From Chthoniobacter flavus (GTDB lineage: Bacteria; Verrucomicrobiota; Verrucomicrobiia; Chthoniobacterales; CAKUMP01), in the NCBI GenBank assembly GCA_020718605.1, contig DYRR01000005.1:1-34531 (forward strand): a stretch of 34,531 nt of DNA. Direction: 5' to 3'. Below the pieces are notes generated by a model that was not told the DNA's origin, searched no databases, and saw nothing but the letters and a program-made list of their open reading frames with translations. The translations under genes were made by a program, and so were the position numbers. How positions within the stretch are numbered: position 1 is the first letter of the stretch; the number at the start of each line of letters is the position of its first letter. Positions 18,295 to 33,692 of this stretch are shown in pieces.

Positions 18295-18379
18295 CCCGAT
18301 CATTGGCATTGGAGATCCCGACGCTCCCGCGCCGGGCTACGAAGCAACCTGTAGCCCGCTCCGGGAGGAGCGGGATCGC
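18291..18379. repeat. REP-like palindromic repeat, copy 1
   Basis: GTAGCCCG(18291)...CGGGCTAC(18340) inverted pair, followed by GTAGCCCGCTCCGGGAGGAGCGGGATCGC (18351-18379) containing the CCCGCTCC-GGGA-GGAGCGGG hairpin. The last 29 bp are identical to copy 2. Confidence 0.8.
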
Positions 18380-22594: not shown

Positions 22595-22667
22595 ATTGGC
22601 AGATCCCTGCGCTCCCGCACAGGGCTACGAAGCCGCCTGTAGCCCGCTCCGGGAGGAGCGGGATCGC
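22595..22667. repeat. REP-like palindromic repeat, copy 2
   Basis: ATTGGCAGATCCCTGCGCTCCCGCACAGGGCTACGAAGCCGCCTGTAGCCCGCTCCGGGAGGAGCGGGATCGC. 22639-22667 is identical to 18351-18379, and the upstream ~45 bp also align. Confidence 0.8.
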
Positions 22668-30845: not shown

Positions 30846-32150
30846 ATGTCCCCCACATCCCTCATTCCCATTTTTTTAGTTGCCGTTTCTGCGGCCGTCT
30901 CTGCCGACACGCTCACTCTCACCGACGGGCGAAAGCTCTCGGGAAAGGTGATCGAGGAAACCGCCGACGGAGTCCTTTTTGAAACACAGGTGTCGGCCAG
31001 CATCGTCGATACCAAGATGATCTCCAAAGACGAGATCGACAAGATCGAGCGGAAGAGCCCCGAAGACAAGGCATGGACTGCCCTCGCCAGCCTCAAGCCC
31101 GGGCCAAACAGCCTGACGTCGGCAGCCTACGACAACATCATCGTCACGCGCCTGGAGGCCCATCTCCGGCAGTTCCCGCAATCGACCCACAAAGGCGAAA
31201 TCGAGGGAATGATCGAAGCGTTCCGGCAGGAAAAAGCCCGGGTCGAAGCGGGGGACGTGAAGCTGGGGGGGCGGTGGATCACCGCGGAGGAGGTGGAAAA
31301 AAATGGCGCGGAAATCGAATCCTGCCAAATTTTCGAAGCGATGAAAGACTCGCTGCGCCAGCGTGATTTCAGCACCGCCCTGAACACCTTTGAAACGCTG
31401 GAAAAAAAATATCCCGGCACCAGTGTGTTTCCAGATGCGCTGGATCTTGCGCGCCAGGCCCTCACCGCTTTCCGGGGGGACTTGGAACTGCGCGCCGCAG
31501 CCCTGAAGCGTTATCAGGAGAAATGGAAGCAGAGCTACGAGAACAACACCCTGGCCGATCAGAAGCAGCAGCTCGATTATTACGCCAATCAGGAAAAGGA
31601 AAAAGCCCTGTCAACCCTCGCCAAGGCGAAGGAAGCGGGGCTCAAGTGGGTGCCGATCATCGAACGCAACGAGGACAGCCTGGTTGAGCTCCAAAAGCTG
31701 GTGCCCACCGAGATGCAGCGGCTCATCGCGCTGGATTCCACGAAAATGCGCGATGCCCTCGCCAAACTTGGGGAAGCCGAAGCCAAACTGGCCGACAACG
31801 ATTTCGAATCCGCCTCGGCACTGGTGACGGAAGCCAAAGCGCTCTGGCCCGCTCTGGATCGCGCCACCCGTCTCCTGGCCGAGATTCCCGCGCTCAAGGA
31901 AAAAGCGGTGAAGGTCGCCATGGCAACCCCGGTCGCCACTCCCACCCCGGCGGCAACCCCGGCGGCGGATGAGGAGAAGACCAAGGCGTCTGTCGCGTCC
32001 GCCCCCGCAAGCGAAGCGGCACCGGAGAAAAAACCATTTTACATGACCACCATGGGCGCCGTCGCCATCGCCGCCGGTGCCCTGGTGCTGGTCGGCGGAC
32101 TTTCCCTGTTGGGCAAGCTGCGCGGGAACAAACCCACCGTAGGGGAATAA
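30846..32150 (+). CDS. Secreted/anchored hypothetical protein with N-terminal DxLxLxDGRKLxGxV motif and C-terminal TM
   Basis: Signal peptide MSPTSLIPIFLVAVSAAVSA; DTLTLTDGRKLSGKVIEE; helical/TPR-like middle; PT/A-rich linker; C-terminal TM and basic tail. Start at ATG 30846 or TTG 30825. Confidence 0.7.
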   Translation: MSPTSLIPIFLVAVSAAVSADTLTLTDGRKLSGKVIEETADGVLFETQVSASIVDTKMISKDEIDKIERKSPEDKAWTALASLKPGPNSLTSAAYDNIIVTRLEAHLRQFPQSTHKGEIEGMIEAFRQEKARVEAGDVKLGGRWITAEEVEKNGAEIESCQIFEAMKDSLRQRDFSTALNTFETLEKKYPGTSVFPDALDLARQALTAFRGDLELRAAALKRYQEKWKQSYENNTLADQKQQLDYYANQEKEKALSTLAKAKEAGLKWVPIIERNEDSLVELQKLVPTEMQRLIALDSTKMRDALAKLGEAEAKLADNDFESASALVTEAKALWPALDRATRLLAEIPALKEKAVKVAMATPVATPTPAATPAADEEKTKASVASAPASEAAPEKKPFYMTTMGAVAIAAGALVLVGGLSLLGKLRGNKPTVGE

Positions 32151-32740
32151 TGAACCGAAAATCATCCATCCAACGGGCCACCGCCGAAACGCGGATCGCT
32201 GTCACCCTTGATCTGGACGGATCCGGAGCATCCCGGATCGCAACGGGCATTCCGTTTTTCGACCACATGCTCACTCTCTTTTCCAAGCATGGCCTGTTCG
32301 ATCTCGACGTGAATGCGGAGGGTGATCTCGAGGTGGATTTTCACCACACCGTGGAAGACACGGGCATCACTCTGGGACAGGCGTTTTCCAAAGCCCTGGG
32401 CGACCGGGCGGGCATCACCCGTTACGGGCATGCCTATGTGCCCATGGATGAGGCGCTGGTCCGCGCGGTGATCGATTTCAGCGGACGCCCCTTTCTGGAA
32501 TATCGCGCCCCCTCGGGTGTCGCGGCCATCGGCGGGTTTCCCTTCCAGCTCGTCGAGGAGTTCCTGCGCGGGTTTGCCGTGCATGCCGGGGTGAATCTCC
32601 ATGTCGAGATTCTTTATGGACGCGACGCGCATCACATGGCGGAGGGCGTCTTCAAAGCACTGGCAAAGGCATCCGGCACCGCCTGCCGCATCGATCCGCG
32701 TGTCCATGGCATCCCCAGCACCAAGGGATCGCTCGTCTGA
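32150..32740 (+). CDS. hisB: Imidazoleglycerol-phosphate dehydratase
   Basis: IATGIPFFDHMLTLFSKHGLFDL, DFHHTVEDTGITLGQAF, HAGVNLHVEILYGRDAHHMAEGVFKALAKA. TAATG overlap with the upstream gene. Confidence 0.96.
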   Translation: MNRKSSIQRATAETRIAVTLDLDGSGASRIATGIPFFDHMLTLFSKHGLFDLDVNAEGDLEVDFHHTVEDTGITLGQAFSKALGDRAGITRYGHAYVPMDEALVRAVIDFSGRPFLEYRAPSGVAAIGGFPFQLVEEFLRGFAVHAGVNLHVEILYGRDAHHMAEGVFKALAKASGTACRIDPRVHGIPSTKGSLV

Positions 32741-32746
32741 TCCGGG

Positions 32747-32993
32747 TGCATTTCTGGGTCAGCGTCCCCGCCTGACCGGTAGCGCAGGCGTCCCACCTGT
32801 AGGACATCCCGGCGTCCCGCCGGATGCCTCCCCCCGGATGCGCTGTCGGCAAAGAGTTCCGGGCGGGACGCCCGAAACGGGTAGGGACAAGCGGCCCGCT
32901 TGTCCGGGAGCGAAGCCGCCCCCCGGCACACGGACGCGCGAGGCCGCACGCCCCTACCAATCGGCCAGCGTCTCGCCTGACCCAAAATATGCA
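32747..32993. repeat. ~247 bp palindrome-rich intergenic element with imperfect terminal inverted repeats
   Basis: Left TGCATTTCTGGGTCAG (32747-32762) versus right CTGACCCAAAATATGCA (32977-32993). Direct repeat CAGCGTCCCCGCCTGACC (32760-32777) / CAGCGTCTCGCCTGACC (32966-32982). Internal hairpins include GACAAGCGG-C-CCGCTTGTC (32886-32904) and CGGGCG-GGA-CGCCCG (32860-32874). Confidence 0.6.
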
Positions 32994-33077
32994 TCGAGGC
33001 TTGCCCCGGGGTTCTTTACTTTCGGCGCATTCGGGGCTGGCAATCCACGGGTTGTCCGACCATAGTCCGCGCTTCTT

Positions 33078-33692
33078 ATGCCGGTCATTGCATTGATCAA
33101 CTACGACAGTGGCAACCTGCGCAGCGTCAGCCAGTCTCTGGTCGCAGCCGGAGCCGAGGTGCGTCTGGTTGGAGCACCAGATGCAATCCAGGGTGCGGAC
33201 GCCGTGGTGCTTCCCGGTGTGGGCTCTTTCGGCGATGCGGCGGCAAGTCTGAAATCCCGGGGTCTGTGGGACCCGGTGCGCGACTGGGTGGCCGCAGACC
33301 GGCCTTTCCTGGGAATCTGCCTCGGATATCAGCTTTTGTTCGAGTCCGGCGAGGAATCACCCGGTGTCGAAGGCTTCGGCATTTTCCCCGGCAAAGTCGT
33401 CCGGTTCGAAAACACCGGTCTCAAAATTCCGCACATGGGCTGGAACACCATCTCGCCGGTGAATCCCGGCGGGGATCTTTGGAGGGGGTTGCCGCCCGAT
33501 CCCCATGTGTTTTTCGTGCACAGTTATTATCCGGCACCGGACGATGACAGTCTCGTGAGTTCTTATTGCGATTACGGCGTCCGGTTCGCCGCAAGCATCC
33601 GCAGGGGGCGGGTGCGGGCCACTCAGTTTCACCCCGAGAAAAGCCAGGAGACCGGTCTGGCGATTCTGCGCAACTTCATTTCCAGCCTGTGA
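33078..33692 (+). CDS. hisH: Imidazole glycerol phosphate synthase, glutamine amidotransferase subunit
   Basis: IALINYDSGNLRSVSQSL, VVLPGVGSFGDAAASL, FLGICLGYQLLFESGEESPGVEGFGIFPG, VFFVHSYY, ATQFHPEKSQETGLAIL. Confidence 0.96.
   Translation: MPVIALINYDSGNLRSVSQSLVAAGAEVRLVGAPDAIQGADAVVLPGVGSFGDAAASLKSRGLWDPVRDWVAADRPFLGICLGYQLLFESGEESPGVEGFGIFPGKVVRFENTGLKIPHMGWNTISPVNPGGDLWRGLPPDPHVFFVHSYYPAPDDDSLVSSYCDYGVRFAASIRRGRVRATQFHPEKSQETGLAILRNFISSL

Follow-up and report, generated by a model that had tools for sequence, protein, structure and literature searches.

A probable hybrid cluster of REP elements from at least four families in the hisB–hisH spacer of Chthoniobacter flavus

The spacer that separates hisB from hisH in Chthoniobacter flavus is very probably a hybrid BIME, a cluster of REP and REPIN elements that belong to at least four families and were presumably built by RAYT-type activity. 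An A-type REPIN, formed by two A hairpins and their outer flanks, lies just after the hisB stop codon, and inside its loop are a GTAG double hairpin (B), a half-surviving element (C) and a GTAG REPIN that is complete (D). REPs of several families are here piled up inside one another, opening a his junction that is normally tight. Hybrid, nested REP clusters are already known as a type; the presence of four families in one junction is unusual. To our knowledge, REPs have been little studied in the phylum Verrucomicrobiota.

Results

A repeat mosaic between hisB and hisH

The hisB–hisH gap measures exactly 337 bp in the sequence of the window, the whole stretch of 34,531 nucleotides analysed here. 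Among the nearest genomes available, 23 members of the same order have hisH adjoining hisB, and their gaps span −10 to +42 bp (computed for forward-oriented loci and taken from printed coordinates for reverse-oriented ones); at the Verrucomicrobiota loci where hisH comes after hisB, the gap is −7 to +85 bp, a range that leaves out distant Proteobacteria, some of which have wider gaps. Searched whole, the spacer matches the genome at a single place, while its parts hit dozens of sites. To obtain copy numbers, we searched for sequence patterns and fetched individual regions of the genome, with the reversed pattern as control. A generic repeat finder reported no families in the spacer, so the case for repeats rests on these genome-wide copies. 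The resulting map is given in Table 1.

Table 1. Features of the hisB–hisH region, in window coordinates
Feature	Position	Strand	Evidence
hisB (imidazoleglycerol-phosphate dehydratase)	32150–32740	+	PF00475 6e-64; NCBIfam HisB models, NF002111 over cut-off
A-left, left unit of outer REP pair	32747–32777	+	TGCATTTCT flank and hairpin GGTCAGCGTCCCCGCCTGACC (32757–32777)
B, GTAG-tagged double hairpin, GGTAGCGCAGGCGTCCCACCTGT and GGACATCCCGGCGTCCCGCCGGATGCC	32778–32828	+	copies at C202 (85% over 51 bp), C23, C257
23-bp junction between B and C, origin uncertain	32829–32851	.	no separate genome copies found
C, distal half of GTAG double hairpin, minus-strand GTTTCGGGCGTCCCGCCCGGAACTCTT	32852–32878	-	six copies in the genome, none for the control
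D, complete inverted pair (REPIN) of GTAG units, GTAGGGACAAGCGGCCCGCTTGTCC ... GGACGCGCGAGGCCGCACGCCCCTAC	32880–32958	+	D1 copies; whole pairs elsewhere
A-right, right unit of outer REP pair, with TATGCA flank (A unit 32963–32982)	32963–32993	+	aligns with A-right copies at C54, C158, C83, C252, C195
Outer flanking hairpin and tail of A element (ATCGAGGCTTGCCCCGGGGTTCTTTACTTT)	32994–33023	+	tails 83–90% identical at C54, C158, C83, C252, C195
Non-repetitive remainder, 54 bp	33024–33077	+	no repeat matches in genome
hisH	33078–33692	+	TIGR01855 4.5e-62
hisA	from 33692	+	TIGR00007

The canonical A element consists of a hairpin, an A unit, ~15 nt, an inverted A unit and a second hairpin. In the his copy, which is intergenic, the usual ~15-nt linker is replaced by ~185 bp between the A units, and B, half of C and the complete D lie inside the A loop. 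The right outer hairpin carries an TTCTTTACTTTC tail. We place the right boundary at ~33,023, because other genome copies match query positions 235–283; repeat-derived DNA consequently runs 30 bp past the end of the element that the first-pass annotation had delimited at 32747–32993. The remainder, together with 32741–32746, makes up a non-repetitive gap of 60 bp, a length inside the range of the relatives. No empty site was found among the relatives compared, the nearest of which has a HisB ~72% identical, and this counts against the hybrid-BIME reading.

The first-pass annotation had described a MITE-like composite element or, as its other option, a nested-REP insertion different from the GTAGCCCGCTCC family. 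The former, a single 247-bp MITE moved as one unit by a conventional transposase, is very improbable. The spacer does have the compact palindromic body and the imperfect terminal inverted repeats of such an element, and the latter are present as quoted (32747–32762 and 32977–32993), but they are the outer REP pair of the A family rather than MITE ends. Likewise, the terminal direct repeat, CAGCGTC..CGCCTGACC, can be found at 32760–32777 and 32966–32982, but it is actually the two A-family hairpins themselves. Where a MITE should occur in multiple full-length copies, the whole unit is single-copy and its parts turn up on their own or differently combined. Inspection of 32741–32747 and 33023, boundaries that are uncertain by a few bases, revealed no evident target-site duplication. 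The second option agrees with what we see, as the units belong to other families of dispersed repeats and are nested; searches of the genome with the sub-units, which that annotation had proposed, did return other copies.

Repeat families and their copies in the genome

Unit A, GGTCAGCGTCCCCGCCTGACC, has 62 copies in the genome at ≤3 mismatches, with none for the reversed control. The unit is amplified here: at ≤2 mismatches this genome has 59 copies, whereas none of 196 others from the order exceeds 6. Elsewhere in the genome, A often has a GGAG foot and an inverted partner ~35 bp away, and the pair is in some cases bordered by further hairpins. Both his A units are without the GGAG foot (in A-left, GGAGGG has become GGG), which counts against a hybrid BIME. 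The GTAGCCCGCTCC family is represented by 99 genome copies (control, 0); two perfect copies of this REP occur in the window, at 18351–18374 and 22639–22662.

The units enclosed by the A pair are less abundant. Intact relatives of C, starting GTAGCGCACGCGTCCCGCGTGC, were found at C120, C258 and C37, and the his copy is missing the GTAG-proximal hairpin. D1 has three genome copies and none in the control; the full D pair is also present at C244 and, outside the genus, in G002 (L031, L041 and L043). B is the weakest family: its core pattern gave five matches versus five control matches and is not significant by itself, the two counts being equal, while support for it comes from the longer alignments obtained at C202 and C23. 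The low copy numbers of B, C and D1 in this genome are a further point against the hybrid-BIME reading.

These families present the characters by which REPs and BIMEs are recognised. Short repeated palindromes are provided by A, GTAGCCCGCTCC, C and D1, and weakly by B; GTAG (or a variant) at the 5′ foot of the hairpin is seen in B and in both D units, which carry GTAG itself; and inverted pairs or clusters between genes are represented by the D pair, here and elsewhere, and by A pairs at many loci. A putative cognate RAYT accompanies A as well. The gene on C179 is a RAYT (NF047646, 80.9 bits versus a cut-off of 80) with HUH (DHVHLF) and ESY motifs, and A-family hairpins with GGAG feet stand on both sides of it. 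A RAYT flanked on both sides by its REPs is the layout termed a REPtron. This gene was found with the NCBIfam model and missed by a Pfam Y1_Tnp search. Profile searches of the genome found no RAYT for B, C or D, and this too counts against the hybrid-BIME reading.

Nested composites at other loci

Nine A loci have a GTAGCCCGCTCC unit at +25 to +32 bp from the A start, always in the same orientation; in two of the nine, an inverted A partner can be recognised further on. Altogether, a GTAGCCCGCTCC unit lies no more than 150 bp from 13 of the 62 A units; the number expected averages 0.75 under uniform placement and 5.9 if the units are placed in an assumed 12% intergenic fraction (p 0.006). Linkers are common to several of these loci, which suggests that some A–GTAGCCCGCTCC composites are copies of a few founders.

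A second A-B-D cluster was found at C23:2343–2546 (L201), beside a tRNA-Gln(CTG) gene. It bears on whether the A-B-(C)-D string had formed before it spread, instead of being assembled between hisB and hisH by separate insertions, a course of events that we consider unlikely. Order and orientation at C23 are those of the his spacer, B and D are recognisably homologous, and the linkers common to A and GTAGCCCGCTCC composites at several loci would suit such a spread; against it, the A-B and B-D linkers of C23 are unrelated to those of the his spacer, an extra hairpin stands between A and B, and both C and the right-hand A unit are absent.

By stepwise assembly, which we prefer, the cluster would have grown through successive RAYT-type events, the outer A probably arriving first. 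This order is read from the nesting alone, a pattern that rearrangement could mimic, and to that extent the point weighs against the reading. In E. coli, REP hairpins in single-stranded form are recognised by TnpA-REP, which cuts beside them (PMC8266576); by analogy, RAYT-type tyrosine transposases may have copied the units here by cleaving single-stranded REP hairpins.

We also raise, tentatively and as no better than a doubtful possibility, that REPINs of one family are preferred landing pads for the REPs of other families, which would enter the loop between the two hairpins. Nested composites, such as A with B, C and D or A with GTAGCCCGCTCC at a near-fixed offset, would then grow stepwise and might subsequently spread as new units. 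With nine A units carrying GTAGCCCGCTCC at a near-constant offset, whether REPINs attract other REPs is testable.

Spacer folding and the his transcript

Folded as RNA, the 337-nt gap reaches −167 kcal/mol (z −3.3 versus dinucleotide shuffles, none of which was as low), and the D pair alone (32880–32960) has a z of −4.6, in line with the strong hairpins reported by the first-pass annotation. A-left folds at −11.1 kcal/mol. As single-stranded DNA, the fold of the gap is marginal (z −1.9).

A strong RNA fold upstream of a biosynthetic gene is what a regulatory leader of hisH would show, be it an attenuator, a riboswitch or a T-box conserved as a property of the locus. That explanation is nonetheless hardly credible. 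No Rfam family reaches the gathering threshold in the window, and the sequence is made of dispersed repeats. The first-pass annotation had allowed for an ordinary leader, in the form of a spacer conserved only at this locus across relatives; the 337-bp spacer is absent from every same-order relative checked that has hisB and then hisH.

A promoter scan found no promoter, and a terminator scan returned one weak terminator-like stem at 33048–33069, outside the repeats (0.3 expected). We had considered an intrinsic terminator at the right-hand hairpin with its T-rich tail, which is terminator-like in other copies; the idea was dropped because this hairpin folds poorly here (−4.4 kcal/mol, z +1.5).

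In the transcript, a junction that is short enough for translational coupling in the relatives is replaced by a long structured spacer. Judging from the sequence, the REP cluster probably separates the translation of hisH from ribosomes finishing hisB. It would also add strong structure to the mRNA, as the folding models predict, and may lower transcription by attenuation or shield the hisB message upstream of it, by analogy with E. coli REPs, which can attenuate transcription, stabilise upstream mRNA and stall ribosomes if ≤15 nt from the stop codon (PMC12306157). Here the first paired base comes 16 nt past the hisB stop codon and narrowly misses that range. A search of the literature on REP effects in operons found nothing more specific. 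Any host function of the cluster is probably incidental.

Discussion

Relation to known REP systems

Hybrid BIMEs with REPs of two RAYTs have been described in Stenotrophomonas (Nunvar et al. 2010, PMC2817692). As in those, the his cluster alternates REP orientations and mixes families, and a RAYT is flanked by the same REP family. It differs in having further REP units inside the loop of one REPIN, in drawing on four families, in its outer A units, whose copies elsewhere in the genome bear GGAG in place of GTAG, and in its host, a member of Verrucomicrobiota. In the same phylum, a survey of GTAG and CGTC elements reported several GTAG REP families in Opitutus terrae, with head-to-head dimers and frequent insertion near or inside genes (2013, PMC3733652). 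B and D resemble these in carrying GTAG, a likeness drawn from the description and not from family consensus sequences, whereas unit A carries GGAG. A and D match REPINs (PMC3116915) in comprising two inverted REPs and a loop, dispersed as a unit; unlike them, the A REPIN is bordered by extra hairpins on the outside, and other repeats here fill its loop. Otherwise, this is an ordinary REP cluster, although its elaboration is unusual.

Other transposase-related genes in the genome

A RAYT-like gene below the cut-off (64.7 bits) was found on the minus strand of contig C192 (6411–6821; L135), between inverted repeats TTCGCGCGAAGCGCTTTGGACTGCGGCGACTTGTCGCCGC that are unrelated to the his units. 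On contig C42 (L049) there is an IS200-like transposase gene (NF033573 over cut-off), with a partial relative on contig C180 (L052), in a region where tandem repeats have frames coding for peptides, for example LARKKGARLWRGRRGHAFGAEEG. On contig C14, carB, the gene for the carbamoyl-phosphate synthase large subunit (L198:2677–6816, also L050 and L134; NF003671, 1629 bits), forms a single open frame of 1380 codons that contains, in frame, a RAYT-like transposase at residues ~594–700 (NF047646, 70 bits, below the 80-bit cut-off) and two further in-frame inserts, REP-encoded in appearance. A transposase gene in frame inside a housekeeping enzyme is unusual.
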